Shown piece after piece: positions 3,735-51,970 of a stretch of 64,000 nucleotides of DNA. The DNA lies in the NCBI RefSeq assembly GCF_017308015.1, contig NZ_JAFKFW010000022.1:25288-89287 (forward strand), in the 5' to 3' direction. The stretch's first letter is position 1. Each line of letters begins with the position of its first letter. Source of the DNA: Allobosea sp. GTDB taxonomy: Bacteria > Pseudomonadota > Alphaproteobacteria > Rhizobiales > Beijerinckiaceae. Below the pieces are notes generated by a model. That model was not told where the DNA came from and searched no databases. It saw only the letters and a program-made list of their open reading frames with translations. Made by a program: the position numbers and the translations under genes.

Positions 3735-4808
3735 ATGACAGGTCTCTCGGTCTGGGCTTCGACACTGATCGGCGTCGTCGTCGGTGCCGCTTGCGGTTTC
3801 ACGGTGCGTCGCGCGCGGCTGTGCTCCTTCGGAGCGATCGAGGACGCATGGATGGGCGGCGACACGCGCCGCCTGCGGATTTTCGGTCTCGCGCTGGCGA
3901 TCGCGCTGATCGGCGCGCAGTCCCTGGTCGGGCTCGGCTGGCTCGATCCGTCGAACTCGACCTATGTGCAGCCGGCCTTGCCCTGGCTCTCGATCGTCGT
4001 CGGAAGCAGCATGTTCGGCCTCGGCATGGCGCTGGTAGGCACCTGCAGCTTCGGCTCGCTTGTGCGGCTGGGTTCGGGGGACCTGCGCAGCCTGATCGTG
4101 ATGATGGTGTTCGGGTCGGTCGCCTATGCGACGCTGCGCGGCATGCTGGCGCCGGTCAGGATCGAAATCCTCGAAAAGGTCGCGTGGCCCGTTCCCGGCG
4201 GCCTGAAAGGCGATTTCAACAGTGTGCTTGCCTATCTCGGCGCACCGCATTCCCGCCTGGCGCTCACGGCCATCGCGGTGCTGGTGCTGGTGGCGGCAGT
4301 CGCGGTCGATTCGAGGCTGCGCCGGTCGCCGCGCCTGTTGATGGCCGGCGCGACATTAGGCCTCGGCGTGGTGGCGGGGTGGTGGGTTACAGGGGTTGCG
4401 GTCGATGCCTTCGATCATGTTCCGCGGGCACAGAGCCTGACATTCGTCTCCCCGGTCGGGCGCGCCCTCTATGCCGTTCTGTCAGTGCCGGCCGCCTTGC
4501 TCGAATTCGGCATCGGGGCACTTGTCGGGGTTGTATCTGGGTCCTTTCTGTCCGCCCTCTACGATCGGGAGTTCCGCTGGGAGGCCTTCGACGACGACCG
4601 GGAGATGAGACGTCACCTCGTCGGTGCGGTGCTGATGGGAGGCGGCGGCGTGCTGGCCGGTGGCTGCACGATCGGCCAGGGGATATCTGCGGGATCGATG
4701 ATGGCGCTGTCCTGGCCGATATCCGTCGCCGGCATGATGGTCGGAGCGCGCATCGGCATCGCCTTTCTGATGGAAGGCTCGCTCAGGGGCCTCTTGCAGA
4801 GACGTTGA
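3735..4808 (+). CDS. soxT: SoxT, YeeE/YedE-family sulfur-compound transporter
   Basis: 357-residue polytopic membrane protein with about nine to ten hydrophobic helices and the two family cysteine motifs: GTCSFGS in the first half and GGCTIGQG in the second, marking the pseudo-twofold repeat of YeeE/YedE proteins. Characterised relatives take up thiosulfate through these cysteines. SoxT genes often adjoin soxSR. It starts 31 nt after soxR and is probably in its operon. Whether it imports thiosulfate for assimilation or supplies sulfur to SoxR and the SoxS/W relay cannot be settled here. Confidence 0.85.
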   Translation: MTGLSVWASTLIGVVVGAACGFTVRRARLCSFGAIEDAWMGGDTRRLRIFGLALAIALIGAQSLVGLGWLDPSNSTYVQPALPWLSIVVGSSMFGLGMALVGTCSFGSLVRLGSGDLRSLIVMMVFGSVAYATLRGMLAPVRIEILEKVAWPVPGGLKGDFNSVLAYLGAPHSRLALTAIAVLVLVAAVAVDSRLRRSPRLLMAGATLGLGVVAGWWVTGVAVDAFDHVPRAQSLTFVSPVGRALYAVLSVPAALLEFGIGALVGVVSGSFLSALYDREFRWEAFDDDREMRRHLVGAVLMGGGGVLAGGCTIGQGISAGSMMALSWPISVAGMMVGARIGIAFLMEGSLRGLLQRR

Positions 4809-37922: not shown

Positions 37923-38933
37923 TCATCGGGCGTGCCTGATGCGCGGGTTGATCAGGCCGTAGAGCAGGTCGACGAAGAGGTTGACGCTCATCACCACGAC
38001 GCCGAGCAGCAGCGTGCCGCCCTGGAGAACGGGATAGTCGCGCCGGCTGATCGCCTCGATCAGCCATTTGCCGACGCCGGGCCAGGAGAAGATCGTCTCG
38101 GTCAGGATCGCGCCGGTGAAGAGCGCCCCGACCTGCAGGCCGATGACGGTGACGATCGGGATCAGCGCATTGCGCAGCGCATGCAGCGCCACCACCCGGA
38201 TCGGCGCCATGCCCTTGGCGCGGGCGGTGCGGATATAATCCTCGCCCAGAACCTCCAGCATCGCCGAACGGGTCATGCGCGCGATGACCGCGAGCGGCAC
38301 CGTGCCGAGCACGATCGCCGGCAGGACGAGATGCGACAGGGCCGACCAGAAGGCGTCGATATCGCCGGCCAGCAGGCTGTCGACGGTGAGGAAGCCGGTG
38401 ACCGGCTCGATGAAGTACTGAACCGCGATCCGGCCCGAGACCGGCGTGATGCCGAGCTGCACCGAGAACAGCAGGATCAGCAGCAGGCCCCACCAGAAAA
38501 TCGGCATCGAATAGCCGGTGAGCGAAATGCCCATCACGCCATGGTCGAAGATCGAGTTTCGTTTCACCGCGGCAATGATGCCGGCTGGAAGTCCGACGAT
38601 CAGCGCGATCAGGATGGCGCAGATCGCGAGCTCGATCGTGGCCGGGAAGAGCTGGCCGAACTCGGTCAGCACATTCTCGCGGGTCACGATCGACTTGCCG
38701 AGATCGCCCTGGACGACGCGCTCGATATATTTGCCGTACTGGACGAGCAGTGGCCGGTCGAGGCCGTACTCGGTCAGGAGCTGGGCGTGGCGGGCGGCGT
38801 CGATGCCGCGTTCGCCGGCCATGGTCTCGATCGGGTCGCCGGGGACGAGGCGGACGAGAAAAAAGGCCAGCAGCGTGATGCCGATGAAGGTCGGGATGAC
38901 CAGGCTCAGGCGGGTGAAGATGAAGCGCAGCAT
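37923..38933 (-). CDS. dppB: DppB-type peptide ABC transporter permease
   Basis: 336 residues, six helices, with N-terminal FIFTRLSLVIPTFIGITLLAF and the conserved RTARAKGM loop that contacts the ATPases (YIRTARAKGMAPIRVV), followed by ETIFSWPGVGKWLIEAI. Channel subunit of the peptide importer. It starts 62 nt after the M55 peptidase gene, in the same operon. Confidence 0.92.
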   Translation of the reverse strand: MLRFIFTRLSLVIPTFIGITLLAFFLVRLVPGDPIETMAGERGIDAARHAQLLTEYGLDRPLLVQYGKYIERVVQGDLGKSIVTRENVLTEFGQLFPATIELAICAILIALIVGLPAGIIAAVKRNSIFDHGVMGISLTGYSMPIFWWGLLLILLFSVQLGITPVSGRIAVQYFIEPVTGFLTVDSLLAGDIDAFWSALSHLVLPAIVLGTVPLAVIARMTRSAMLEVLGEDYIRTARAKGMAPIRVVALHALRNALIPIVTVIGLQVGALFTGAILTETIFSWPGVGKWLIEAISRRDYPVLQGGTLLLGVVVMSVNLFVDLLYGLINPRIRHAR

Positions 38934-38995
38934 GGTTTGCCGATGTTTTTGGCCGGCGCGAGACGGGGCGTCGCACGCCGGCAGATCGTCTGGAT

Positions 38996-39820
38996 TTATT
39001 GCAATGTCGAGCTGTAGCCCAGCGCAAACACCAAAAAGCGCTGAAGATCAAGGATGTCGTCTGCGACATACCGGATCGTGAAGGCATCCACCCGCTCCAC
39101 GAGCTTCAGCATGACGAGATATTCGACCGGCTGGCGGAACAGGAAATTGACCTCGAGCGAGATCGGCCCGGCGATCCGGTAGGGCTTGATGGAGGCTCGC
39201 CGCGCGATGGCGCGCTTCACGCCTTCCGCGATGAGTTCGTAGGAAGCTTCCGGCATCAGCGTGCGCGCGGACTGGCGGCTATGTGCCCATTTTACCGTCA
39301 CGCCTTCGATATCGGGCAGGAACGCCTTGGTCTCGGCGATGGTGGCGTCGTCGCCACTCACGAGCAGCACCGGCACGTCGAAATGCCCGGCAATGGCGGC
39401 GTTGATGCCGGCTTCCGGCACGGCGACGCCGTTGACCCGGACTTCCCGCAGCGAGGCGCCGCGGAAGGTATGGGCCAGCACGCCTTCGGGGTTGGTCGAT
39501 CCGGTGTGGTAGCCGATGAAGAGCGCCCCGTCATAGGCACCGGTCTCGACCCCCTGCATCATCGAGAGCGGTCGCGGATGAGCCCGCACGAGCTGCACAT
39601 CGCGTGGCAGTCGCTCGAGCAGCAGGTTCTGCGCCCGGCCGTGGCTGTCGGCGATGACGACCTCGCTGGCGCCGCTGTCATAGGCGGCACGCGCTGCGGC
39701 GGTGACGCTGTCGGTCATCCAGATTCGGGCGGTCTGGTATTCGAAGCCCTCGACGAGGGTCTGGTCGCGGGTAACGACCCCGGCGATGCCTTCGATATCG
39801 GCGGAAATGTAGATGCGCAT
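38996..39820 (-). CDS. M55 zinc D-aminopeptidase (DppA-type)
   Basis: 274 residues from the ATG at 39820; the upstream frame overlaps the binding-protein gene. Ligands of the B. subtilis DppA dinuclear zinc centre have matching positions: D8 and E10 in ADIEG, H60 in ADSHG, H105 in GYHTG and E136 in VPEAGIN, with H117 in the place of the nucleophile-activating histidine. DppA releases D-alanine from D-Ala-containing peptides. Its place between the binding-protein and permease genes of a Dpp operon suggests the importer brings in D-amino-acid peptides, for example from peptidoglycan. Confidence 0.92.
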   Translation of the reverse strand: MRIYISADIEGIAGVVTRDQTLVEGFEYQTARIWMTDSVTAAARAAYDSGASEVVIADSHGRAQNLLLERLPRDVQLVRAHPRPLSMMQGVETGAYDGALFIGYHTGSTNPEGVLAHTFRGASLREVRVNGVAVPEAGINAAIAGHFDVPVLLVSGDDATIAETKAFLPDIEGVTVKWAHSRQSARTLMPEASYELIAEGVKRAIARRASIKPYRIAGPISLEVNFLFRQPVEYLVMLKLVERVDAFTIRYVADDILDLQRFLVFALGYSSTLQ

Positions 39821-39918
39821 GGCGAGGGGCTCCGGAAAAGCCGCTGCGCGGCCCGCAAGGACGCGCAGAGAATCGGCCGCGGCAGCCCGAGGCCGCCGCG
39901 ACGAGAGCGTGGAAACGA

Positions 39919-41535
39919 TTACTTGGCGACGGAAACGCCGTAGAAGGGCTGCCCGCCGAAAAAGTGGATCTTGTAGTCCTTCACGTCCTTGCGCACCGGC
40001 GTGAAGGCCTGCGCATTGGCGAAGAGCAGGCCCGCCACGTCCTGGTGGAACAGCTCCTGGAAGCGCTTGTAGAGCTTGGCGCGCTCGCCCTGATCGGTGA
40101 TCGTGCTCGCCTTGGCCAGCGCGTCCGATGCTTCCTGGTTGCACCAGCGGGCGCGGTTGGCGCCGGTCTTCACGCCGTCGCATGTCCAGCCCGAGAGCAG
40201 AATCTGGCTCGGGTCGGGATAATCCCAGGTGTAGCCGAACATGCCGACATCATGGTCGCCGGCCCGGCCGCGCTTGAGATACTCGCCCCACTCGAAGGTC
40301 TGGATCGTTGCCTTGACGCCGATCTTGGCCCAGTCGGCCTGGATCAGTTCGGCCGCGCGGCGCCCGTTCGGCATATAGGCGCGCACCACCGGAATGGCCC
40401 AGAGCGTCGTTTCGAAGCCGTCGGCGAGGCCGGCCTCCTTCAGCAGGGCCTTGGCCTTTTCGGGATCGTAGGGGCGCGGCTTCAGGTCGGCGTCATGCGA
40501 CCAGAGCGAGGGCGGCACCGCCGCGGCGGCGATCTTGCCGGTGCCCTGGTAGACCGCGTCGATGATCGCCGGGATGTTGGTCGCGTAGGCCAGGGCTTCG
40601 CGGACCCGCTTGTCGCCGAAGGGCTTCTTCTGCTGGTTGAAGGCGAGGAAGCTCTGGTCGGCGATGCTGCCTTGCAGCAGGTTGATCGTCGGTTCGGTCT
40701 TCATGGCCGGCAGGTCGCCGGGATTGGGGTAGCGCGCGATCTGGCATTCGCCCGAGCGCACCTTGGCGAAACGAACGGAGGCGTCCGGCGTGATCACGAA
40801 GATCAGGTCGTTCACCAGCGCCATGCGGTCGCGATTGCCGACGGCCTTTGTCCAGTGGTCCTGCACCGCCTTGAAGCGGATCACGGCATCCTTCTGGTAG
40901 GAGAGGAGCGAGAACGGGCCGGTGCCGATCGGCGCGAAATCGAGCTGCTCGGGCGTGCCGGCCTTCAGCATCGCGGCGCCATATTCGGCCGAGAGAATCG
41001 ACATCGGCTCGACCGAGAGTGCCGAGAGCAGCGGCGCGTTCGGCTTGGTCAGGGTCAGCTTGACCGTGAAGTCGTCGACCTTTTCGAGCGCCTTGAGGCT
41101 CGGCTTCACGATCTCGGCGAAGAACTGGTAGTTGCCGCTGCCGATCTTGTTGAAGGGATGGCCGGGGTCGAGCATGCGCTGGAACGAGAAGATCACGTCG
41201 TCCGCGTTGAAGTCCCGCGTCGGCGTGAAGGTCTTGCTGGCGTGCCATTTCACGCCCTTGCGCAGCTTGAAGGTGTAGGTCAGCGCATCGTCGGAGATGG
41301 TCCAGGACTCGGCGAGGCTCGGGATGATCTGCGAGCCGCCGCGTTCCGTCGCGGTCAGCCGCTCATAGATCTGTGCGGCGACGTCATAGGCGGTGTTCTG
41401 GCTGCTGAACTGGGGATTCAGGAAATCGGGGCTGGCCTCGGAGCAGACGACGAGCGCCTGGGCGCCGGCGACGGCGGGCAGCAACAGGGCGCTGAGCCCC
41501 AGCGTCACGGCAAGGGAGCGGGCACGAACGGACAT
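39919..41535 (-). CDS. Peptide ABC transporter substrate-binding protein (second copy)
   Basis: 538 residues; signal peptide MSVRARSLAVTLGLSALLLPAVAGAQA. Family 5 extracellular binding protein beginning VVCSEASPDFLNPQF, with LTYTFKLRKGVKW and the lobe-hinge blocks GTGPFSLLSYQKD and YDPEKAKALLKEAG. It is a paralogue of the next upstream protein and is encoded in the same direction, 150 bp behind it. Two binding proteins serving one DppBCDF channel would widen the substrate range. GC-rich hairpins, including GCCGC/GCGGC at 39840-39852, lie between it and the M55 gene. Confidence 0.9.
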   Translation of the reverse strand: MSVRARSLAVTLGLSALLLPAVAGAQALVVCSEASPDFLNPQFSSQNTAYDVAAQIYERLTATERGGSQIIPSLAESWTISDDALTYTFKLRKGVKWHASKTFTPTRDFNADDVIFSFQRMLDPGHPFNKIGSGNYQFFAEIVKPSLKALEKVDDFTVKLTLTKPNAPLLSALSVEPMSILSAEYGAAMLKAGTPEQLDFAPIGTGPFSLLSYQKDAVIRFKAVQDHWTKAVGNRDRMALVNDLIFVITPDASVRFAKVRSGECQIARYPNPGDLPAMKTEPTINLLQGSIADQSFLAFNQQKKPFGDKRVREALAYATNIPAIIDAVYQGTGKIAAAAVPPSLWSHDADLKPRPYDPEKAKALLKEAGLADGFETTLWAIPVVRAYMPNGRRAAELIQADWAKIGVKATIQTFEWGEYLKRGRAGDHDVGMFGYTWDYPDPSQILLSGWTCDGVKTGANRARWCNQEASDALAKASTITDQGERAKLYKRFQELFHQDVAGLLFANAQAFTPVRKDVKDYKIHFFGGQPFYGVSVAK

Positions 41536-41613
41536 GGGCGGTTCTCTCGGAAAAGGCAGGGAAGGCGGATCGGGCGCGGGGCGTCATGCCTCATCGTCTT
41601 CGCTTCCCGGAGC

Positions 41614-41675
41614 GCGGCCCCGTCGGGGCCGCGTCGTCTGGCAAGGATCGGCCGCGCCAGCTCGTGGCGCGGCCG
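41614..41675 (-). other. Twin perfect hairpins between the two binding-protein genes
   Basis: Two strong stem-loops in the 150-bp gap: an 8-bp stem GCGGCCCC/GGGGCCGC (41614-41632, 3-nt loop) and an 11-bp stem with core GGCCGCGCCA/TGGCGCGGCC (41649-41675, 5-nt loop). No T-tract follows, so they look less like terminators than like structures that slow 3' decay and keep the upstream binding-protein mRNA abundant relative to the rest of the operon. Confidence 0.65.
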
Positions 41676-41685
41676 GTATTGTGGC

Positions 41686-43278
41686 TCACTTGCCGATATC
41701 GACGCCGTAGAAGGTGTGGCGGCCGAACGGCGAGAGCTTGAAGTCCTTCACTTCCTTGCGGACCGGCTTGAGCTGCACCGCATGCGCAATGGTGAACCAG
41801 GGCGACTGCTCCTTGAAGATCACCTGCGCCTGCCGGTAGAGTTTTTCGCGCTCGGCCTGGTCGGTGACGCGCTTCGCCTTCAGCACCAGTTCCTCGAAGG
41901 GCTGGTAGCAGAACTTGGCGACGTTCGAGCCGTTGGTCTTGGCCGATTCGCAGCCCAGCAGCGTGTGCAGGAAGTTGTCCGGGTCGCCGTTGTCGCCGGT
42001 CCAGCCGAGCATGCCCGTCTGGTGCTCGCCCGCCTGCATGCGCTTGCGGTACTCGCCCCATTCGAAGCTCTTGATCTCGGCCTTGACGCCAACCTTGGCG
42101 AGGTCGGCCTGCATCAGCTCGGCGATGCGCTTGGCATTCGGGTTGTAGGGGCGCTGCACCGGCATGGCCCAGAGGTCGATCTCGAGGCCGTTCGGATAGC
42201 CGGCCTCGGCCAGCTCCTTCTTGGCCGCCTCCGGGTCGAAGGGGTCGTCCTTGATGGTCTCGTTATAGGACCACATGGTCGGCGGGATCGGGTTGATCGC
42301 CGCGACGCCGCTGGAGAGATAGACCGCGTCGATGATCGCCTTCTTGTTGATCGCCTTGTTGACGGCGCGGCGCACCTTGACGTCGTCGAACGGCTTCTTG
42401 GTGGTGTTGTAGGCGAGATAGCCGATGTTCAGGCCCGGCTGTTCCAGGATCTCGACATTGGCGTCCTTCTTCATCGCCTCGAGATCGGCCGGGTTCGGAT
42501 AGGGCATGACATGGCATTCGCCCTTCTGGAGTTTGGCCCAGCGCACCGAGGCATCCGGCGTGATCGCGAAGATCAGGTCGTCGATCTTGGCCTTGCCGGC
42601 CCAGTAGTCCGGGTTGGCCTTGTAGCGGATGATCGCGTCCTTCTGGTACTGCACCAGATAGAACGGGCCGGTGCCGACCGGGTCCTGATCGAGCTTCTCG
42701 GGCGTGCCCGCCTTCAGCATGGCGTCGGCATATTCCTTCGACTGCACGCTGGCATATTGCATCGCGAGGTCGGCGAGGAACGGCGCTTCCGGCTGGTTCA
42801 GCGTGAACTTGACGGTGTAGTCATCGACCTTCTCGACCGACTTCAAGAGCTTGGGCATGCCCATGTCGTTGAAATAGGAGTGGTTCGAGCTGGTCACCTT
42901 GAAGAACGGGTGGTCTTCCTTCCACTGCCGCTCGATCATGAACATGATGTCGTCGGCATTGAAGTTGCGCGTCGGCTTGAAGTTCTTGTTGGACTGCCAC
43001 TTGACGTTCTTGCGCAGGTGGAAGGTGTAGGTCAGGCCATCCGGCGAGATGTCCCATTTCTCGGCGAGCGCCGGCTGGACCTTGGTGCCGCCGCGCTCGA
43101 ACTGCACGATCGTGTCGTAGATTTGCGTGTTTGCGTCGAAGGACGTGCCGGTGGTGTTGACGCTCGGCGCGAAGTTCTCGGGGCTGCCCTCCGAGCAATA
43201 CACCAGGGTCTTGGCCATCAGCGGCTGCGCCGCCATCAGCGCGGAGGCCGACAGCGTCGCCAACAGAATTTTCTTCAT
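41686..43278 (-). CDS. Peptide ABC transporter substrate-binding protein (first copy)
   Basis: 530 residues; signal peptide MKKILLATLSASALMAAQPLMA, then a DppA/OppA-type family 5 binding protein with LVYCSEGSPENFAP, GLTYTFHLRKNVKW, PVGTGPFYLVQYQKDA and the C-terminal HTFYGVDIGK. It is the first gene of the dpp operon; the 280 bp upstream (43279-43558) hold no gene and must carry the operon promoter, but no clear motif stands out. It is similar end to end to the following binding protein. Confidence 0.92.
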   Translation of the reverse strand: MKKILLATLSASALMAAQPLMAKTLVYCSEGSPENFAPSVNTTGTSFDANTQIYDTIVQFERGGTKVQPALAEKWDISPDGLTYTFHLRKNVKWQSNKNFKPTRNFNADDIMFMIERQWKEDHPFFKVTSSNHSYFNDMGMPKLLKSVEKVDDYTVKFTLNQPEAPFLADLAMQYASVQSKEYADAMLKAGTPEKLDQDPVGTGPFYLVQYQKDAIIRYKANPDYWAGKAKIDDLIFAITPDASVRWAKLQKGECHVMPYPNPADLEAMKKDANVEILEQPGLNIGYLAYNTTKKPFDDVKVRRAVNKAINKKAIIDAVYLSSGVAAINPIPPTMWSYNETIKDDPFDPEAAKKELAEAGYPNGLEIDLWAMPVQRPYNPNAKRIAELMQADLAKVGVKAEIKSFEWGEYRKRMQAGEHQTGMLGWTGDNGDPDNFLHTLLGCESAKTNGSNVAKFCYQPFEELVLKAKRVTDQAEREKLYRQAQVIFKEQSPWFTIAHAVQLKPVRKEVKDFKLSPFGRHTFYGVDIGK

Positions 43279-43558: not shown

Positions 43559-44224
43559 TCAGAGAACCTCACGTACCCGCACCAGGGTCGTGTCCATGTG
43601 GCGGCCGATCGCCTCGGACAGGGCGTCCGCGTCGCGTCTGAGCAAGGCCGCCATCATGTCCTGGTGTTCTGCGACCGCGCCCGCCCATTTCTCAGGGCCT
43701 TCATTGCCGACGAAGCGCAGCCGCTTGATCCGGGCCTGCAGGGTCGTATGCATCTCGGCCAGCACGGCGTTGCCGGATGCTGCGACGATGGCGCTGTGGA
43801 TCGCCTGGTTCAGCTTGAAATAGTCGAGCCGCTCGCGCGTCGCGTAGAGCGCGAGCATGTCCGCGTGCAGCTTGTGGATCGCCTCGATCGTCGAGTCGCT
43901 GGCCTGCGCACAGGCGATGCGGCCGCCGAGCTGCTCGAGGCTTTTGATGACCTCGAGGATGTCGGCGAGATCGCGCGCCGAGAATTTCCGGACGATCGCG
44001 CCCTTGGCCGGCAGAATCTCGACGAGCCCCTCGCTGGCGAGCGTCTTGATCGCCTCGCGCAAGGGCGTCCGCGACACGCCGAGCTGGGCGCCGACCTGGC
44101 CCTCGTTGATGCGCTGGCCGGGTTCCAGGCGCCCTTCGATGATCATGTCGCGCACACGCTCCAGCACCTCGTCATGGAGTGTGCGGCGCGTGATCGGGAT
44201 ATAGTTGGCCGCCGTTTCGCTCAT
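43559..44224 (-). CDS. GntR/FadR-family regulator with FCD domain
   Basis: 221 residues. Winged helix-turn-helix with GQRINEGQVGAQLGVSRTPLREAIKTLASEGLVE, then an all-helical FCD effector domain with KLNQAIHSAIVAASGN and a HxxxM/H-type metal site region AVAEHQDMMAALLRRD. FCD-type GntR proteins usually repress sugar-acid or organic-acid catabolic genes and release DNA on binding a carboxylate. It lies 51 nt behind the SAF-domain dehydrogenase gene, and a matching palindrome occurs in the divergent promoter at 45747-45764. Confidence 0.92.
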   Translation of the reverse strand: MSETAANYIPITRRTLHDEVLERVRDMIIEGRLEPGQRINEGQVGAQLGVSRTPLREAIKTLASEGLVEILPAKGAIVRKFSARDLADILEVIKSLEQLGGRIACAQASDSTIEAIHKLHADMLALYATRERLDYFKLNQAIHSAIVAASGNAVLAEMHTTLQARIKRLRFVGNEGPEKWAGAVAEHQDMMAALLRRDADALSEAIGRHMDTTLVRVREVL

Positions 44225-44275
44225 CGTTGCTCCCGTGTTCCGGCCTCTCCGTTACGGCATGCGCCTTCCGTGCTG

Positions 44276-45682
44276 TCAAACGGGCGCGCCGTTCCCGAGG
44301 GAAAACAGCGCATCCTGCCGCCGGCGCATTGCCAGCAACCCGGAATCCTCGGGGATTGCGACATCGCCGAGGCGGATCGGCTGGCCGGTCTTGACGGGGC
44401 GGACGAGAATTCGGTCGGCCACGAGGTAGAAGGGGGCGGGGCGCTCGGCTGCGAGCGCCGTCGCCGGCCGCACCTCGGCTCCGACGCCGTCGATGCTGTG
44501 ATGATGCCCGCCCATCGTGAGCACCGTCCCGGCCGCGAGGTCGCATTGCGCGACCGCGACGAGGTCCTGCCGCGGCTGGTAGTCGTCGCCATAGCCCGAG
44601 CGCCCGAGAACGGCTGCATCGAGAATGGACGTCGCAACCTCGACGCCCAGCAGGTGGCGCGGCAGGTAGAGCGCCGCCGTTTTGCCGCTGCGGCTGACGA
44701 CATGCCCCTTTCCGGCAAGCATCTCCCAGGTTTCGGCATTGTCGCAACGTACGACGATGAAGACGCCGCCGGCGAAGCTGGCTTCCTCGGCCAGTCGCAG
44801 ATGGTGGAACACGTCGATCCGGCGCGTGCCGCCCGTCAATCCGCCTTCGGCGCGCTCCGCGAACAGATCGGCCAGCTCGGGAATGCGGGCGGGCGGCGCA
44901 TGGAAGCCGGCCGCGTCGGCGGAAAAGTTCAGGGCATTGGCGACGAGCGTCATCTCGCAGAGATCGGGTACGGCCCTCAGGGGAAAGGCCTCGCCGAGGA
45001 TGCGCGCGCGTTCCGCCGCGTTGGCGACGATCGAGCGCGAGCCCGGAAGCCAGTGTTCGCGCAGCGTCGGCAGGGCGCGGGTCACGCCGTTGCAGGTGAC
45101 ATGGCCGGTCGCGGCATCGAGGATGAAATCGTACTCGCTCGACTTGCCGGCCGCGATGATTTCGAGGCCGATGACTTCGGCCCAGCTCGCCAGCGCGATC
45201 AGCAGACTCGGCTGGTCGCCATCGACCGGAGTCACCACGACGCCGTTGTCGCGGGCGAGCCGCGCCAGCCCCGGCCCGACGACGCTGTCTGCCTCCTTCG
45301 AGACCAATGCGACATGGCGGCCCGCCTCGATCGCGGCGAGGCTGTGCCGCGTCGCGGCTTCGGGGCTGCCGGTCGCTTCGACGAGGAGCGTGAAAGGCAG
45401 CTCCATCGCGACATCGAGGCTCGCCGCGGCGACGCAGCGTCCGGCATTCCAGGCAGCCTTCGCTTCGGCCTGGGTCGTGCACAGCGCGATTTCGCCAGGC
45501 TCAAAGCCGGCTGCAGCGAAAGCCTTGCCCGCCGCTTCGGCGGTTACGTCGACTGCGATGCGCGCATTGACCAGCCGCGTCCGGCGCGACTGCGCGAGAT
45601 AGCTGCGCCCGAAGCTGCCGCTGCCGACGAGGCAGGTTTCGACCGGTTCGGTGATCCCCGCGTAGTGCGCATGAAAATTCAT
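44276..45682 (-). CDS. NAD(P)-dependent dehydrogenase with C-terminal SAF domain
   Basis: 468 residues from the ATG at 45682 behind GGAGGAGGG. A Rossmann domain with VGSGSFGRSYLAQ at about 21-33 resembling homoserine-dehydrogenase N-domains, a central homoserine-dehydrogenase-like region (EATGSPEAATRHSLAAIEAGRHVALVSKEADS), and a C-terminal SAF domain starting near LVADRILVRPVKTGQPIRLGDVAIPED. The substrate is unknown. It is divergent from the pdxA2-like gene and shares its promoter region, so the two should act in one pathway. It might oxidise or reduce a hydroxy- or oxo-acid. Confidence 0.8.
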   Translation of the reverse strand: MNFHAHYAGITEPVETCLVGSGSFGRSYLAQSRRTRLVNARIAVDVTAEAAGKAFAAAGFEPGEIALCTTQAEAKAAWNAGRCVAAASLDVAMELPFTLLVEATGSPEAATRHSLAAIEAGRHVALVSKEADSVVGPGLARLARDNGVVVTPVDGDQPSLLIALASWAEVIGLEIIAAGKSSEYDFILDAATGHVTCNGVTRALPTLREHWLPGSRSIVANAAERARILGEAFPLRAVPDLCEMTLVANALNFSADAAGFHAPPARIPELADLFAERAEGGLTGGTRRIDVFHHLRLAEEASFAGGVFIVVRCDNAETWEMLAGKGHVVSRSGKTAALYLPRHLLGVEVATSILDAAVLGRSGYGDDYQPRQDLVAVAQCDLAAGTVLTMGGHHHSIDGVGAEVRPATALAAERPAPFYLVADRILVRPVKTGQPIRLGDVAIPEDSGLLAMRRRQDALFSLGNGAPV

Positions 45683-45746
45683 CGGCCCTCCTCCGGCGCG
45701 GCTTGATCGATGCACTGCGCCGGTCGGAGGAGTACAGCAATCTTGA

Positions 45747-45764
45747 TATGCTGCATACAGCATA
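45747..45764. promoter_or_regulatory. Palindromic operator for the GntR-type regulator
   Basis: TATGCTG (45747-45753), spacer CATA, CAGCATA (45758-45764): perfect 7-bp arms, extended by partly matching GATATG and CATACTTG flanks. It lies in the 150-bp divergent gap between the SAF dehydrogenase and pdxA2-like genes. Short AT-biased palindromes of this size are typical of FadR/FCD-type GntR sites. Confidence 0.65.
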
Positions 45765-45832
45765 CTTGAGCGGTCGGGCCGCCTGTGTTAGCCAACGGGC
45801 CAGACGAGCGGACAGGCAGCGGAGTGGCGGCC

Positions 45833-46867
45833 ATGAATGAGCGCACGAATGACGCCTTGCCGGTGATCGCCGTGGCGATGGGGGATCCTTCCGGCATCAG
45901 TCCCGAATTGACGGCCCGTATCCTGTCCGAAGCCGATCTGCGCGCCGCTGCCCGCTATGTTGTCTTCGGCGACAAGCGCCTGCTCGATCTCGGCATCGAG
46001 GACGGCGGTGTCGATCCGCAGGTTCAGGTCGTGAAGGACGGCGAGGCGCTGCCGCTCGGCGACAGGCCGGTCTTCGTCGATCTCGCCAATCACGACCCCG
46101 CCGATCTCAAGCGCGGCACGGCGACGCTCGCGGGCGGCAAGGCTGCGACCGAGAATTTCCGCCGCGCCTTGCGGTTCGCGGCCTCGGGCCAGGCCGGCGC
46201 GGTGTTCTTCACGCCCTTCAACAAGGCGGCGATGCGCTTCGCCTATCCCGGCTATGACGACGAGATCCGCTTCGTGCGCGATGTCATTGGCTTCGAGGGC
46301 GCGGCGAGCGAGTTCAACATCCTCGACAGGCTCTGGAACGCGCGCGTCACCTCGCATATCCCGCTTTCCGAGGTGGCGCAGAACATCACGCAGGAGCGCA
46401 TCCTGCGGGCGCTGACGCTGGCGGATGCCAATCTGCGGGCGGCCGGCTTCAATCCGCCGCGCATCGCGGTCGCGGGCATCAATCCCCATGCCGGCGATGG
46501 CGGCAATTTCGGGCGCGACGAGATCGAGACGATCGAGCCGGCAGTGAAGGCCGCCAAGGCGAAGGGCTTCGTCGTCGAGGGGCCGTTCCCGTCGGACACG
46601 GTCTTTCTTCGAGCGAAGAACGGCGATTTCGACGCCGTGCTGACGATGTATCACGACCAGGGCCAGATCGCGATGAAGCTGATCGGCTTCGACCGCGGCG
46701 TCACCCTGATCGGCGGCTTCCCGTTCCCGATCTGCACGCCGGCCCATGGCACGGCCTACGAGATCGCGGGCAAGGGCGTCGCCAATCTCGGCGCGACGCG
46801 CGCGGCGCTCGCGCTCGCCATCAAGATGGCCCGGGACGGAAAGGGCAGCGCCCGCGCCGCCGCCTGA
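45833..46867 (+). CDS. pdxA2: PdxA2-like 4-hydroxythreonine-4-phosphate dehydrogenase family protein
   Basis: 344 residues from the ATG at 45833 with GGAGTGG upstream (an in-frame GTG at 45785 is weaker). PdxA-fold motifs in order: MGDPSGISPEL near the start, TPFNKAAMRFA, INPHAGDGGNFGRDE, LTMYHDQGQIAMK with a metal-ligand histidine, and CTPAHGTAYEIAGKG. PdxA2 proteins oxidise 4-phospho-threonate/erythronate in sugar-acid catabolism; terephthalate DCD dehydrogenase is another relative. No DUF1537 kinase or ring dioxygenase is nearby, so neither pathway fits directly. It leads the plus-strand TTT-transporter run. Confidence 0.82.
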   Translation: MNERTNDALPVIAVAMGDPSGISPELTARILSEADLRAAARYVVFGDKRLLDLGIEDGGVDPQVQVVKDGEALPLGDRPVFVDLANHDPADLKRGTATLAGGKAATENFRRALRFAASGQAGAVFFTPFNKAAMRFAYPGYDDEIRFVRDVIGFEGAASEFNILDRLWNARVTSHIPLSEVAQNITQERILRALTLADANLRAAGFNPPRIAVAGINPHAGDGGNFGRDEIETIEPAVKAAKAKGFVVEGPFPSDTVFLRAKNGDFDAVLTMYHDQGQIAMKLIGFDRGVTLIGGFPFPICTPAHGTAYEIAGKGVANLGATRAALALAIKMARDGKGSARAAA

Positions 46868-46939
46868 TTTTTCCAAGTATTTTCGACAAAGCCGCCGGCA
46901 AGAGCGGCCTCGCAAGATCAAAACCCAGGGAGAGAAACC

Positions 46940-47935
46940 ATGAAGACCATCGCTATCTCGGCTGCATTTGCCGGCGCGCTCACGCTTGGCGGCGTCGGCG
47001 TCGCCCAGGCCTGGGAGCCGACCAAGCCGATCGAGTTCGTCGTGACCTCGGGCGCCGGCGGCGGCACCGACAATTTCGCCCGCATCATCCAGTCGATCAT
47101 CACCAAGCACAAGTTCACCGAGCAGCCGATCGTGGTGGTGAACAAGGGCGGCGGCTCCGGCGCCGAGGGCTATGTTTACGGCAAGAGCGCCAAGGGCGAT
47201 CCGAACCGCGTCATCTTCGGCACCAACAATGCCTATCTGCTGCCTTACGTCGCCAAGCTCGGCTACAAGTTCTCGGACCTGACCCCGGTTGCGGCGCTGG
47301 CGCTCGACGAGTTCCTGCTCTGGGTCAAGGGCGATGCCCCTTATGCCGACGCCAAGGCCTATATCGAGGCGGTCAAGGCCAAGCCGATGGGCTTCAAGAT
47401 GGGCGGCAGCCAGTCGAAGGATACCGACCAGACGCTGACCTCGATGATCCAGGACGCAACCGGCGTGAAATGGATCTATGTGCCGTTCCAGGGCGGCAGC
47501 GCCGCGGCCGTACAGCTTGCGGGCGGCCATATCGACTCCAACACCAACAACCCCAACGAGAATATCGGCCAGTGGAAGGCCGGGCAGGTGAAGCCGCTCT
47601 GCGTGTTCTCGCCGGTGCGTCTCGCCAAGGGCGAACCGGTCTTCGAGGGCAAGGGCTGGGGCGACATCCCGACCTGCAAGGAGGCGGGCCTCCCGCTCGA
47701 GACCTTCCAGATGCCGCGCACCGTCTGGCTGCCGGCTGACGTCCCGGCCGATGCCGTGGCCTATTATGCCGGGCTGCTGGAGAAGGTCTCCAAGACGCCG
47801 GAATGGCAGGAATTCGTGACGCGCACCGCGCAGACCGGCAAGTTCATGAAGGGCAAGGAGCTCGCCGATTTCGTCGCCAAGGACGAGGCTGCCAACAAGA
47901 AGGTCTTCGAGAACGAAGGCTGGGTCGCGAAGTAA
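46940..47935 (+). CDS. tctC: TctC/Bug-type periplasmic binding protein
   Basis: 331 residues with a signal peptide (about 1-25, ending VAQAW). Bug-family signatures PIEFVVTSGAGGGTDNFARII, VVVNKGGGSGAEGY and VPFQGGSAAAVQLAGGHID, the loops that grip carboxylates through ordered waters. It delivers its ligand to the TctAB channel encoded downstream. It is slightly longer than the classical family and precedes tctB by 192 bp, a gap largely filled by a REP-like repeat. Confidence 0.9.
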   Translation: MKTIAISAAFAGALTLGGVGVAQAWEPTKPIEFVVTSGAGGGTDNFARIIQSIITKHKFTEQPIVVVNKGGGSGAEGYVYGKSAKGDPNRVIFGTNNAYLLPYVAKLGYKFSDLTPVAALALDEFLLWVKGDAPYADAKAYIEAVKAKPMGFKMGGSQSKDTDQTLTSMIQDATGVKWIYVPFQGGSAAAVQLAGGHIDSNTNNPNENIGQWKAGQVKPLCVFSPVRLAKGEPVFEGKGWGDIPTCKEAGLPLETFQMPRTVWLPADVPADAVAYYAGLLEKVSKTPEWQEFVTRTAQTGKFMKGKELADFVAKDEAANKKVFENEGWVAK

Positions 47936-47975
47936 GGTGGGATCGGCGCGTGCCGGTCGACCTCGGAAACACGCG

Positions 47976-48071
47976 GTCATCCCGGGCTTGACCCGGGATC
48001 CATGCCGGAACCTTCATCGGGTCCGCTCAGGCATAGGTCCCGGATCTCCGCATCGCTCCGTCCGGGATGAC
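47976..48071. repeat. REP-like palindromic repeat, copy 2
   Basis: 96-bp element between tctC and tctB, bounded by inverted ends GTCATCCCGG (47976) and CCGGGATGAC (48062-48071), with an internal palindrome CCCGGGCTTGACCCGGG. It shares its terminal GTCCGGGATGAC with the element at 27228-27348. As there, it sits just after a binding-protein gene or between it and its permeases. Confidence 0.75.
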
Positions 48072-48127
48072 ACGCCTCTCCTTATAGCCGTGCCTTCCCG
48101 CCGCTCCCGCAAGGAGGAATCCACCGC

Positions 48128-48616
48128 ATGATCACCCGCTTCTGGGCAGAGATCGGGGCGGCCGTCCTGACGCTGGTCTTCGGGCTCGTCATCGTGAAGG
48201 GATCGCTGGAGTTCGGCATCGGTTGGGATACGTCCGGCCCGCAGCCCGGCGCCTTTCCGTTCTATGCCGGAGCGCTGATCGCGCTGGCGAGCCTCGGCAC
48301 GATCGCCGTGACGCTTGGACAGCGCGTCGCCGGAAAAGTCTCGCTCGCAGAGGCTTTCCTCGACGCCGAGCGCGGCAAGCGGGTGCTTGCCTTCCTGCTG
48401 CCGCTCGTCGCCTTCGTCGTGCTGAGCGCAACGCTCGGCATGTATGTCGCGACGATCCTCTATCTCGTCTTCGCGATGCGCTTCCAGGGTGGCTATGGCT
48501 GGCTGCAGAGTCTTGGCACCGCCTTCGTGACGGCGGCGTTCTTCTATTTCGCGCTCGAGAAATTCTTCCAGATCGGTCTGCTCAAGGGGCCGATCGAGCC
48601 GCTCATCGGTCTCTGA
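48128..48616 (+). CDS. tctB: TctB-type small permease subunit of a TTT transporter
   Basis: 162 residues, four hydrophobic helices: about 8-25 (VLTLVFGLVIVKGSLEFGI), 38-58, 80-105 and 118-140. The block GWDTSGPQPGAFPFYAGALIA after the first helix is the usual TctB feature. Small membrane subunit of the sodium-coupled tripartite tricarboxylate transporter. It lies 18 nt before tctA. Confidence 0.88.
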   Translation: MITRFWAEIGAAVLTLVFGLVIVKGSLEFGIGWDTSGPQPGAFPFYAGALIALASLGTIAVTLGQRVAGKVSLAEAFLDAERGKRVLAFLLPLVAFVVLSATLGMYVATILYLVFAMRFQGGYGWLQSLGTAFVTAAFFYFALEKFFQIGLLKGPIEPLIGL

Positions 48617-48634
48617 GACGGCGGGGATATCAGC

Positions 48635-50146
48635 ATGGATAACATCGCCAACCTGATGCACGGCTTCTCGGTCGCGCTCACCACGCACCATGTCCTGCTG
48701 ATGATGGCGGGGGTCCTCCTCGGGGTGCTCGTCGGCGTCCTGCCGGGGCTCGGCGCGCCGAACGGCGTCTCGCTCCTGCTGCCGCTGACCTTCTCGATGG
48801 ACCCGGTCTCGGCCATCATCCTTTTGACCTCGCTCTACTGGGGCGCGCTTTTCGGCGGCTCGACCACCTCGATCCTGTTCAACATTCCGGGTGAACCTTC
48901 ATCGGTGGCGACCACGTTCGACGGTCACCCGATGGCCAAACAGGGCAAGGCCACCGAGGCACTGTCCTTCGCCTTCCTCTCGGCCGGCTTCGGTGCCATG
49001 GCCGGTGTCATCCTGATCACGCTGCTCTCGGGCTGGGTCGCGAAATTCGCTTTGCGCTTCTCCTCGCCCGAATATTTCGCCGTCTATTTCATGACCTTTG
49101 CGAGCTTCATCGGGCTCGGCGGCGCCTCCCCCTTCAAGACCGTCGTCTCGATGGCGATCGGCTTCGCGCTGGCGACCATCGGCATGGACTCGGTCTCCGG
49201 CAATGTCCGCCTCACCTTCGAGTTCGACGTGCTGCTTGCCGGCGTCAGCTTCCTGATCGCGGTCATCGGGCTCTTCGGCATCGGCGAGTTGCTGCTGACC
49301 ATGGAGGAGGGGCTGAAATTCGAGGGTGTCGCCGCCAAGGTGCGCATCGGCGATGTGCTGCGGACCGCGGCGAAGCTCCCGCGCTACTGGCTCGCCCTGC
49401 TGCGCTCCTCGCTGATCGGCATCTGGATGGGCATCACGCCGGGTGGGCCGACGGCAGCCTCGTTCATGAGCTACGCAATGGCCAAGCGCTCCTCGCGCCA
49501 GCCCGCGAAATTCGGCAAGGGCGAGCCCGAGGGCGTGATCGCGCCCGAGACCGCCGACCATGCCGCCGGTTCCGCTGCCATGCTCCCGATGCTGGCGCTC
49601 GGCATTCCCGGCTCGGCGACTGCGGCCGTGATGATGGGCGGCCTGATGATCTGGGGCCTCAATCCCGGCCCGACGCTCTTCACCGACAGGCCGGATTTCG
49701 TCTGGGGCCTGATCGCCTCGATGTATCTCGGCAATGTCGTTGCGGTCGTGGTCGTGCTGGCGACGGTGCCGCTCTTCGCTTCGATCCTGCGCATTCCCTT
49801 CTCGATCATCGGGCCGGTCATCGTGGTGATCTGCTTCATCGGCGCCTTCACCGCTGCCAGCAAGGAATTCGACATCTGGCTCGCGCTGGTCTTCGGGCTC
49901 GTCGGCTATCTCTTCAAGAAGCTCGACTACCCGATCGCACCGCTCGTGCTCGCGATGGTCATCGGCGACAAGGCCGAGGATGCCTTCCGCCAGTCGATGA
50001 TCTTCAGCCAGGGCTCGCTTTCGATCTTCTGGTCGAACCCGCTGGTTTCGACGCTGATGGCGATCGGTCTGGCTCTGCTGATCATGCCCGTCGCCGGCTC
50101 GGTCGCCCGCCGTCTGCGCGGCGTTAAGGCCGCCAGTACTGTCTGA
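48635..50146 (+). CDS. tctA: TctA-type large permease subunit of a TTT transporter
   Basis: 503 residues, eleven to twelve helices. Family signatures: GVLVGVLPGLGAPNGVSLLLPLTF, LYWGALFGGSTTSILFNIPGEPSSVATTFDGHP, and the repeat LALGIPGSATAAVMMGGLMIWG. The channel subunit that imports the carboxylate ligand of the TctC protein. With PdxA2, DapA-like and RraA-like genes on the same strand, the imported compound is probably an aldonic- or related hydroxy-acid. Confidence 0.93.
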   Translation: MDNIANLMHGFSVALTTHHVLLMMAGVLLGVLVGVLPGLGAPNGVSLLLPLTFSMDPVSAIILLTSLYWGALFGGSTTSILFNIPGEPSSVATTFDGHPMAKQGKATEALSFAFLSAGFGAMAGVILITLLSGWVAKFALRFSSPEYFAVYFMTFASFIGLGGASPFKTVVSMAIGFALATIGMDSVSGNVRLTFEFDVLLAGVSFLIAVIGLFGIGELLLTMEEGLKFEGVAAKVRIGDVLRTAAKLPRYWLALLRSSLIGIWMGITPGGPTAASFMSYAMAKRSSRQPAKFGKGEPEGVIAPETADHAAGSAAMLPMLALGIPGSATAAVMMGGLMIWGLNPGPTLFTDRPDFVWGLIASMYLGNVVAVVVVLATVPLFASILRIPFSIIGPVIVVICFIGAFTAASKEFDIWLALVFGLVGYLFKKLDYPIAPLVLAMVIGDKAEDAFRQSMIFSQGSLSIFWSNPLVSTLMAIGLALLIMPVAGSVARRLRGVKAASTV

Positions 50147-50200
50147 TACCTGCCCCACTCCTTCGCCGTCCGACCTGCCAGCCACCGACGAGATGACGCC

Positions 50201-51118
50201 ATGACCGAACCCTACAAGGGCATCCTGCCGATCGCGCCGACCATCTTCCACGAGAATGGCGACCTCGATATCGAGGGCAACAAGCGCGTCATGGACCTGA
50301 TGGTCGATCAGGGCGTCGACGGCATCTGCATCCTCGCCAATTATTCGGAGCAGTTTCTGCTGACCGACGAGGAGCGCGACCAGGTCATGCGCCTCTCGCT
50401 GGAGCAGGTTGCAGGCCGCGTGCCCGTCATCGTCACGACATCGCATTTCTCCACGCGCATCGCTGCCGCCCGTGCCAGGGCCGCCGCCGATGCGGGCGCG
50501 AGGATGCTGATGATGATGCCGCCTTATCACGGTGCGCTGCTCAAGGCTGACGAGCAGGGCATGATCGAGCATTTCCAGGCGGTCGCCGATGCCTGCGGCA
50601 TTCCGATCATCCTGCAGGATGCGCCGCTTTCGGGCGTCACCATGACCGTGCCCTTCATGATCCGGCTGGCGAGGGAGGTTCCGCTCGTCCGCTATTTCAA
50701 GATCGAGGTGCCGGGTACGGCGAACAAGCTGCGCGCGCTGATCGAGGCCGGCGGCGATGCCGTGGTCGGCCCCTTCGACGGCGAAGAGGCAATCACGCTG
50801 ATGGCCGATCTCGACGCCGGTGCCACCGGCACGATGACCTCGGCGATGATTCCCGATCTCATCAAGCCGATTCTCGCTGCCCATGCCGCGGGTGACCGCA
50901 AGCAGGCTGCGGCGCTCTACGCCCGGGTCCTGCCGATCATCAACTATGAGAACCGCCAGTGCGGCCTGCGCGCGACCAAGACCGTGATGAAGGAGGGCGG
51001 CGTGATCCGTTCTGACGCCGTGCGCCACCCGCTGACGCCGTTGCATCCGAAGACCCGCGAAGGCCTGATCGAACTCGCGCGCGAGCTCGACCCGCTGGCG
51101 CTGCGCTGGGGCAAATAG
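50201..51118 (+). CDS. DapA-superfamily enzyme, 2-keto-3-deoxyarabonate dehydratase-like
   Basis: 305 residues of the DHDPS/N-acetylneuraminate lyase barrel. The Schiff-base lysine is in LVRYFKIEVPG. The usual GTTGE loop is replaced by LANYSEQFLLTDEER and the helper tyrosine of YNxP by ILQDAPLSG. This is the pattern I recall for L-2-keto-3-deoxyarabonate dehydratase, which turns keto-deoxy-pentonate into 2-oxoglutarate semialdehyde, rather than for true DapA. It lies between tctA and the rraA-like gene. No aldonate dehydratase or semialdehyde dehydrogenase is in the window. Confidence 0.75.
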   Translation: MTEPYKGILPIAPTIFHENGDLDIEGNKRVMDLMVDQGVDGICILANYSEQFLLTDEERDQVMRLSLEQVAGRVPVIVTTSHFSTRIAAARARAAADAGARMLMMMPPYHGALLKADEQGMIEHFQAVADACGIPIILQDAPLSGVTMTVPFMIRLAREVPLVRYFKIEVPGTANKLRALIEAGGDAVVGPFDGEEAITLMADLDAGATGTMTSAMIPDLIKPILAAHAAGDRKQAAALYARVLPIINYENRQCGLRATKTVMKEGGVIRSDAVRHPLTPLHPKTREGLIELARELDPLALRWGK

Positions 51119-51129
51119 GCGGGCATCTC

Positions 51130-51168
51130 CGAAGCGGGGGCGGGTTGCATTTTTCGCATCCCGCTTCG
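51130..51168 (+). terminator. Large hairpin between the DapA-like and RraA-like genes
   Basis: Perfect 9-bp stem CGAAGCGGG (51130-51138) and CCCGCTTCG (51160-51168); the loop contains TGC/GCA pairing around ATTTTT. It starts 12 nt after the dapA-like stop. A short run of T follows at distance only, so it may weaken rather than end read-through into the rraA-like gene. Confidence 0.55.
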
Positions 51169-51250
51169 CCTTTACAAAGCGGGTCGTAACGCGGGAACCT
51201 CCGCGCCGCCTGCCGGCCGGCGGGAAACCACGGACGGAAAAGGTGAACGC

Positions 51251-51970
51251 ATGCCCAGTCTCAAGCCGGAAACCCGCGAGAAGCTCCGCACGGTTTCCGT
51301 CGCCACGCTCTGCACCGCCCTGTTCAAGCGTGGGCTGCGCAACCAGTTCATCCAGGACGTCCGCCCGCTCAATCCCGATGCGGGGACGATGGTCGGCGAG
51401 GCCTTCACCCTGCGCTACATCCCGGCGCGCGAGGACCTGAATCCGCTTTCCGTCTTCCAGGACCGCGCGCATCCGCAGCGCAAGGCGGTCGAGGACTGCC
51501 CGCCCGGCGCCGTGATGGTCATCGACAGCCGCAAGGATCCGCGCGCGGCCTCGGCCGGTGGCATCCTCGTCTCACGGCTGATGAAGCGCGGCGTCGCCGG
51601 TGTCGTCACCGATGGCGGCTTCCGGGATTCATACGAGATCGCGCGGTTGCCTTTCCCGAGCTATCACAACCGCCCCTCGTCCCCGACCAACCTCACCCTG
51701 CACCAGGCGATCGAGATCAATGGGCCGATCGGTTGCGGCGATGTCGCGGTCTTCCCGGGCGATATCGTGGTCGGCGACGCCGAGGGCGTCATCGTCATCC
51801 CCGCGCATCTCGCCGACGAGGTCGCGGCTGAAGCCGTCGAGATGACCGCCTTCGAGGATTTCGTCACCGAGGAGGTCCTGAAGGGCCGCTCGATCCTCGG
51901 CCTCTACCCGGCGACCGAGGAGCAGACCAAGGTCGATTTCGCCGCATGGCGAAAGGTCAATGGCCGCTGA
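51251..51970 (+). CDS. RraA-like family protein (aldolase/decarboxylase type)
   Basis: 239 residues with the RraA/HMG-aldolase core: SVATLCTALFKRG near the start, the substrate/Mg site GGILVSRLMKRGVAGVVTDGGFRD (about 98-121) and IVVGDAEGVIVIPAHLADEV. The conserved DGxxRD motif is that of 4-hydroxy-4-methyl-2-oxoglutarate/4-carboxy-4-hydroxy-2-oxoadipate aldolases; the same fold also gives oxaloacetate decarboxylases. The longer N-terminal region resembles family members found in sugar-acid clusters, not RraA of E. coli (about 160 residues). Last gene of the locus, after a 132-bp gap. Confidence 0.8.
   Translation: MPSLKPETREKLRTVSVATLCTALFKRGLRNQFIQDVRPLNPDAGTMVGEAFTLRYIPAREDLNPLSVFQDRAHPQRKAVEDCPPGAVMVIDSRKDPRAASAGGILVSRLMKRGVAGVVTDGGFRDSYEIARLPFPSYHNRPSSPTNLTLHQAIEINGPIGCGDVAVFPGDIVVGDAEGVIVIPAHLADEVAAEAVEMTAFEDFVTEEVLKGRSILGLYPATEEQTKVDFAAWRKVNGR

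Follow-up and report, generated by a model that had tools for sequence, protein, structure and literature searches.

A putative GntR-controlled sugar-acid regulon in Allobosea joins known catabolic modules to DXR-II-like and PdxA-like proteins of predicted chemistry

D-Threonate is catabolised by PdxA2 together with the kinase DtnK, and the non-phosphorylative pathway for L-arabonate and D-xylonate combines an aldonate dehydratase with an L-2-keto-3-deoxyarabonate (L-KDA) dehydratase. The four-step LtnD-OtnI-OtnK-OtnC pathway for threonate needs OtnI since LtnD oxidises C2, according to the accessible text of PMC12540250, and that of PMC10580937 covers a variant with DenD. The substrates of LerK and LerI are L-erythrulose and L-erythrulose 1-phosphate, as stated in the accessible text of PMC10733421. 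Among oxidoreductases, the DRL family comprises DXR-II, represented by the Brucella structures 3upl and 3upy, and two groups, DLO1 and DLO2, called "previously uncharacterized" in the accessible text of PMC3847144; no paper giving a DLO a function was seen among the open PMC papers listed. Here, we analysed a stretch of 64,000 nucleotides from Allobosea sp. (assembly GCF_017308015.1, contig NZ_JAFKFW010000022.1, positions 25,288 to 89,287), hereafter the window, in which a DLO gene and a gene for a PdxA-like protein diverge from each other within a cluster of eight genes.

The cluster encodes a GntR regulator, the DLO, the PdxA-like protein, the TctC, TctB and TctA subunits of a tripartite tricarboxylate transporter (TTT), an L-KDA dehydratase-like and an RraA-like protein, all recognised from open reading frames (ORFs), Pfam and NCBIfam matches (Table 1). 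The initial annotation of this DNA had described sugar-acid families lying together with a dedicated GntR regulator and a transporter, and all eight genes are indeed in place. DLO and GntR share one strand, PdxA-TctC-TctB-TctA-KDA dehydratase-RraA occupy the other, and a short gap separates the two units. We put at about even the chance that this locus forms the principal but incomplete part of a catabolic regulon under GntR control, which would degrade small aldonic acids through two arms, one by dehydration and one by oxidative decarboxylation of unphosphorylated compounds. The substrates would most likely be C5 pentonates of the L-series and possibly C4 tetronates. What we observed directly are the gene families and their neighbours, the conservation of the operator, the altered residues and a predicted fold; substrates, reactions, regulator-operator binding and the destination of the oxidative arm's product in Bosea are what we infer.

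In this model, an aldonic acid would enter through TctCBA. In the first, non-phosphorylative arm, an IlvD/Edd dehydratase encoded in trans would generate 2-keto-3-deoxy-pentonate, which the L-KDA dehydratase-like enzyme would turn into alpha-ketoglutarate semialdehyde. In the second, oxidative arm, the PdxA-like enzyme would oxidise the 3-hydroxyl of the unphosphorylated aldonate, and loss of CO2 from the 3-oxo acid would yield a free ketose, which would be erythrulose for a C5 acid and dihydroxyacetone (DHA) for a C4 acid. The rhizobial operon also encodes a DHA-kinase-family enzyme and an epimerase/isomerase, which would process this ketose there, phosphorylation coming after decarboxylation. 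The DLO would serve as an NAD(P) dehydrogenase, perhaps an oxido-isomerase, making a 3-oxo acid from another isomer, which in relatives would pass to OtnK and OtnC.

The dehydration arm is tied to the window by a DNA motif. The gap separating the divergently transcribed DLO and PdxA genes contains a near-perfect palindrome, TATGCTGCATACAGCATA, and sites of this type occur about 120-230 bp upstream of the PdxA motif in most scanned Bosea loci, including those without an adjacent DLO, with the variants CTGTATACAG or TGTATACA in Rhizobium, Ensifer, Salinicola and Paracoccus. For comparison, the best 80 of 102 loci with DLO relatives were retained, which together with the window make 81 loci; at least one TG[C/T]AT[A/G]CA palindrome stands within 9 kb of the DLO in 70 of 76 named loci, while mononucleotide-shuffled copies of these 76 gave nine sites in 1.5 Mb. 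The exact 16-base core is present at two places in the 4.89-Mb genome, namely the DLO/PdxA gap and positions 4417-4432 of another contig (C24), and a reversed-pattern control found none. As an 18-mer the C24 site has two mismatches, and weaker matches were seen on contigs C54 and C47. The C24 site is located some 135 bp before the chosen ATG of an IlvD/Edd dehydratase gene of the PRK13017 subfamily (1028 vs 684 bits), closest to galactonate dehydratase 7m3k (1017 bits) and to 5oyn (810 bits). Beyond this genome, we hand-picked 29 sites in relatives among the matches listed, omitting sites at PdxA genes and many with two mismatches. Fourteen of them, in 14 genomes, precede an IlvD/Edd orthologue of 91-99% identity, six lie between a second DLO (44-45% identity) and a lactonase-like amidohydrolase plus TRAP operon, seven precede a TctC-like gene, one falls between cyclase and TRAP genes and one near nothing recognised. 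Because a site of this type precedes IlvD/Edd in this genome and in 14 relatives, the "missing" aldonate dehydratase is probably encoded in trans behind the same putative operator, within the apparent regulon and outside the operon itself. The early remark that the enzyme then called DapA-like has no aldonate dehydratase partner is therefore accurate for adjacent genes but probably not for the operator-linked set. The TctC-like gene (27-29% identity) stands behind a site with one or two mismatches in seven Bosea loci (L244-L246, L250, L254-L256) and is a possible further transporter of the regulon.

The DHDPS-family protein of the window is similar over its full length to L-KDA dehydratase 3fkk, with 170 of 302 aligned residues identical, and would be expected to dehydrate L-KDA to alpha-ketoglutarate semialdehyde as 3fkk-type enzymes do. 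Thus, the combination of IlvD/Edd and L-KDA dehydratase known from non-phosphorylative pentonate degradation reappears in one apparent regulon, but with its genes scattered and with the PdxA-like protein and the DLO as additions. Of ten Bosea loci in which PdxA has no DLO beside it, nine contain the KDA dehydratase gene and all contain TctA, so PdxA-TctCBA-KDA dehydratase looks like the operon core, with DLO an addition and RraA rarer still. The RraA-like gene, present in 8 of the 81 loci (window included), was rejected as a core enzyme. Its product matches the family in Pfam and NCBIfam and shows the sequence GGFRD, which may correspond to the Arg-Asp catalytic pair of RraA aldolases. Co-occurrence was assessed in this genome and 60 others of the genus. 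A DLO of at least 67% identity was detected in 35 of the 61, every one of which also has a PdxA-like gene of at least 82%, and the same limits gave PdxA alone in 16, neither in 10 and DLO alone in none, counts that ignore phylogeny. Several genomes among those 16 do carry a DLO, but below the identity limit. By these counts, the association of DLO with PdxA exceeds chance. The nearest named DLO loci (87-90% identity) are titled Bosea almost throughout.

The oxidative arm depends on the PdxA-like protein, which belongs to the PdxA superfamily by its Pfam match and its three metal histidines (H166, H211 and H266) and also keeps D267 and K274, although it falls below the cut-off of all seven PdxA-type NCBIfam models matched, those for D-threonate 4-phosphate included. 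N283 and R292 are kept in four of four references (E. coli PdxA, 6e85, 4jqp and the strain's own housekeeping PdxA), whereas in the MAFFT alignment each of the 57 PdxA-like proteins encoded at the 81 loci has T283 and I/L/V292, the window having T283 and I292. An aligner-free count from the MYHDQ motif found both residues replaced in 56 of 56 proteins (L097, without the anchor motif, was left out) and in 17 of 17 additional PdxA proteins from other loci. The GHTE motif, to which H136 and T137 belong in the four references, is present in none of the 56. Positions 136, 137, 274, 283 and 292 are presumably substrate-binding. Because the protein retains the metal histidines but has lost N283, R292 and the GHTE motif, it is, judged by its residues, not PdxA2, and that initial name is a misnomer. 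It may well work without a phosphate on its substrate, and this part of the phosphate-free hydroxy-acid route suggested at first is supported. Its PDB matches include TphB (4aty), a protein related to PdxA that acts on a substrate lacking phosphate.

These residues also bear on the D-threonate 4-phosphate route, in which a DUF1537 kinase acting in trans would phosphorylate D-threonate for an ordinary PdxA2. As initially noted, no DUF1537 kinase adjoins the PdxA-like gene; the genome has one such gene, on another contig, and the best PDB match of the PdxA-like protein is D-threonate 4-phosphate dehydrogenase 6e85, with which it shares the fold family, metal histidines and K274. This kinase, however, is OtnK-type (585.9 vs a cut-off of 350 bits) and not DtnK (136 vs 450), no DtnK exceeds its cut-off, and no operator site accompanies the gene among the matches listed; in rhizobia, the partners of PdxA are instead a DHA-kinase-family enzyme and an epimerase. 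Kinase type and PdxA residues both contradict the pairing of PdxA2 with a kinase in trans, which is disfavoured and highly improbable. The kinase gene itself (C16:394345-395592, L157) stands beside malonyl-CoA synthetase-like and malonyl-CoA decarboxylase-like genes, named from ORF reading.

Our more specific proposal is tentative, namely that the PdxA-like subfamily with T283 and I/L/V292 would be a previously undescribed, kinase-independent decarboxylating aldonate 3-dehydrogenase, converting unphosphorylated pentonate into erythrulose that is then phosphorylated by a DHA-kinase-family enzyme, and that its partner DLO would be a DXR-fold oxidoreductase or oxido-isomerase feeding 3-oxo acids into the regulon. 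Our confidence in it was lowered slightly, as a recheck left a firm alignment for no more than two of the four PdxA positions.

The DLO combines Pfam DRL_cat with a homoserine-dehydrogenase-type NAD domain (NAD_binding_3). Its PDB sequence matches are 3upy (E 3.5e-28) and 3upl (E 9.1e-28), which are also the top Foldseek matches of its AlphaFold (AF2) model, of predicted local distance difference test (pLDDT) 89.4. Alignment of the model with Brucella DRL 3upl covers 457 columns (template modelling score 0.71/0.80, root-mean-square deviation 6.6, 22% identity), so domain, PDB matches and predicted structure agree on a DRL-like overall fold. The start at 45682 is probably the true one because Met28 is among nearly invariant alignment columns and model residues 1-29 have pLDDT below 50. 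The earlier label "SAF dehydrogenase" is consistent with relatives annotated "SAF domain-containing protein" or "FlgA" and with the fold shared with Brucella DRL, but the protein has no match to Pfam SAF (PF08666) at E<=0.001, and all five SAF matches in the genome lie on other contigs. Pfam SAF does match a second DLO-like protein of this genome (C4:53354-54538), a distant one with 31% identity over part of its length.

In the accessible text of PMC3847144, T229 (substrate/fosmidomycin site) and R320 (dimer) are among the key changes for DXR-II activity. We compared 76 DLO rows, that is, 75 loci and the window (L078, L107, L109, L111 and L123 were excluded for a stop inside the tblastn span), of which 40 entered a structure-based alignment. 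E232, D245 and H250 are kept in 76 of 76, but every row has D in place of T229 and L, I or N in place of R320, and the gene context is catabolic. By these residues, the window protein is a DLO and not DXR-II, and a functional DXR-II or isoprenoid role was rejected. That no chemistry had been assigned to it, as first stated, agrees with the wording of PMC3847144, but the kinship with DXR-II had been missed. Retention of the fold and of the three residues would also suit an oxido-isomerase, which would oxidise an apionate-like or other branched acid such as 2-hydroxymethylglycerate and rearrange it to a linear 3-oxo acid for OtnK, the reverse of DXR chemistry. In its favour, 18 of 25 loci with OtnK show no OtnI-like gene. 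We regard this as improbable, as the DXR-II-specific T229 and R320 are absent throughout, the associated kinases are OtnK-type (one member scored 124.9 against the OiaK cut-off of 700), and a plain C3 dehydrogenase accounts for the operon equally.

Gene neighbourhoods were mapped in 77 loci (L106, L116, L125 and L154, without a DLO ORF after overlap resolution, were excluded); as the overlap filter concealed some true genes (LtnD in L132, several OtnC), unfiltered matches were also used, for RraA across the 81 loci and for OtnC, LtnD and OtnI in the OtnK loci. Matches were obtained to TctA in 65 loci, GntR in 62, PdxA in 44, OtnK in 25 (within about 10 kb of the DLO), KDA dehydratase in 17, DAK, the DHA-kinase family, in 16 (scores below 300 at L088, L093 and L148) and RraA in seven. 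All 30 scanned kinases, 29 from relatives and the strain's own, match the 3-oxo-tetronate kinase (OtnK) model NF043035, three of them at 600.8, 553.2 and 585.9 against a cut-off of 350. OtnC, of Aldolase_II type, was counted in 12 of 77 loci after filtering, and a separate OtnC-matching ORF in 22 of the 25 OtnK loci without it. By contrast with the described four-step pathway, LtnD was found in two of these 25 and not in 23, and the OtnI-like family c29, one member of which scores 286 where the OtnI model requires 325, in seven. A stand-alone GntR/DLO-TRAP-cyclase-otnK-otnC operon is carried by Paracoccus versutus pTAV3, and otnK, an aldolase gene and DLO are grouped in Comamonas antarctica. 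Such DLO-OtnK-OtnC operons without a listed LtnD or OtnI suggest that DLO itself may deliver the 3-oxo acid. An IlvD/Edd dehydratase gene lies inside a PdxA-TctCBA-DLO operon in Roseomonas. The view that no known pathway uses this set of genes is thus not supported, as orthologous clusters with a DUF1537 kinase or an aldonate dehydratase, which had been expected to place the set in a known pathway, do exist in relatives, although none of the 25 OtnK loci is in the window's clade.

The same neighbourhoods are the basis of a C4 tetronate reading, in which the DLO would oxidise C3 of a tetronate to 3-oxo-tetronate, the PdxA-like enzyme would convert another tetronate into dihydroxyacetone and CO2, OtnK or a DHA kinase elsewhere would finish, and the KDA dehydratase would be a side enzyme. 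The frequency of OtnK and OtnC beside DLO and the minimal Paracoccus operon speak for it. It leaves unexplained the KDA dehydratase of Bosea, the IlvD/Edd gene behind the same operator and an epimerase next to every single-chain DAK, and no OtnC exceeds the cut-off in the strain's own genome; we therefore find it possible but rather unlikely. In all 12 OtnK loci without any PdxA match (L115, L117, L119, L120, L122, L123, L128, L130, L141, L143, L145 and L150), palindromes of the TGCATGCA type stand upstream of DLO, frequently as two or three copies with a spacing of about 62 bp, and because they differ from the window's operator they suggest a second regulator type. Also in favour of the C4 reading, the OtnK and OtnC models coincide on two of the 30 scanned kinases, presumably the two 633-residue kinase ORFs downstream of DLO (L141:14120-16018 and L150:14615-16513), which would be natural kinase-decarboxylase fusions. 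A contig filed as the cyanobacterium Kaiparowitsia, whose DLO pairs in the tree with that of an alphaproteobacterial metagenome-assembled genome (L113 vs L116), is probably binning contamination.

A C5 substrate for the oxidative arm is suggested by rhizobial operons. Sinorhizobium meliloti pSymB, Shinella and Pararhizobium have a GntR-PdxA-TctCBA-epimerase-DAK operon, with neither DLO nor DUF1537 within the displayed stretch. Single-chain DAK is found in 15 DLO loci, and the epimerase adjoins it in 15 of 15. The best PDB match of the epimerase is 5tnv (E 2.5e-96), presumably a Mycobacterium LerI-type protein, and LerK is a DAK-family kinase. Conversion of a C5 acid to erythrulose is preferred because achiral dihydroxyacetone would need no epimerase. 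In the proposed regulon, erythrulose would come from an acid and not from a tetritol, unlike in the LerK/LerI route, and the Bosea operon has neither the kinase nor the epimerase gene.

Several observations weigh against the two-armed pentonate regulon. OtnK and OtnC argue for C4 and the KDA dehydratase, IlvD/Edd and epimerase for C5, in partly different clades. The OtnK/OtnC and DAK/epimerase neighbours come from relatives at 49-57% DLO identity, with OtnK near DLO in none of the 28 tree rows that form the window's clade but in 23 of the 48 remaining rows, and the PDB matches of the DAK-family kinase are named dihydroxyacetone kinase or its subunit. The strain's own OtnK is not adjacent to the cluster, the best OtnC score in its genome is 112 against 250 bits, and neither gene is in the window. 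Likewise, its sole Dak1 gene, a possible source of the missing kinase, is in another cluster, and the locus has no adjacent single-chain DAK or epimerase to take on the PdxA product. The model also has no place for the RraA-like gene. Alignment of PdxA is uncertain at positions 136/137, where MAFFT pairs E and mostly I but HMMER pairs Y and D, and relative L112 retains T137 in the MAFFT alignment. The C24 site could also serve a divergent aminotransferase gene beginning close by, and operator-like sites with two mismatches occur elsewhere too, including genomes of other families. Within the genus, 60 of the 61 genomes carry OtnK whether or not they have DLO, and its co-occurrence with DLO within Bosea was set aside as uninformative.

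Other genes were noted on the way. The DhaK-DhaL pair of the strain, on contig C55 (L187:6392-12865), is flanked by a large dimethylformamidase-like protein gene on one side and by kinase and class III aminotransferase genes on the other, and looks unrelated to the window locus. Next to the cluster, window positions 37923-43278 on the minus strand hold dipeptide ABC transporter parts (two DppA-like binding proteins and a DppB-like permease) together with a D-aminopeptidase-like gene, an ordinary set. Both sets were named from ORF reading. The GntR/FCD protein is probably the local regulator of the cluster.

Table 1. Features of the sugar-acid cluster in window coordinates
Feature	Position	Strand	Remarks
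GntR/FCD regulator	43559-44224	-	Pfam GntR + FCD; begins 51 bp past DLO stop, same strand
DLO, DXR-II-like NAD(P)-dependent oxidoreductase	44276-45682	-	ORF open to 45763; Pfam DRL_cat 80 bits
Operator-like palindrome TATGCTGCATACAGCATA	45747-45764	.	Divergent DLO/PdxA gap
PdxA-like metal/NAD dehydrogenase, distinct subfamily	45833-46867	+	ORF open from 45785, probable start 45833; Pfam PdxA 269 bits
TctC solute-binding protein	46940-47935	+	Pfam TctC
TctB small membrane subunit	48128-48616	+	Pfam TctB
TctA large membrane subunit	48635-50146	+	Pfam TctA 484 bits
L-KDA dehydratase-like, DHDPS-family	50201-51118	+	PDB 3fkk/7c0c E ~1e-111
RraA-like class II aldolase/decarboxylase family, PRK08245	51251-51970	+	NCBIfam 351 vs cut-off 208 bits

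The system is not categorically new. It would be a variant among sugar-acid regulons in which known modules are combined with two enzyme subfamilies whose chemistry is so far only predicted. An incomplete-looking cluster can be completed via its operator, the dehydratase being located by a DNA switch and not by neighbourhood. If the proposal is true, two orphan families would gain functions at once. It would provide the first function for DLO proteins, the sister families out of which, according to PMC3847144, the alternative isoprenoid enzyme DXR-II arose, and a function for a PdxA subfamily whose current annotation in rhizobia and their relatives is vitamin B6 biosynthesis.

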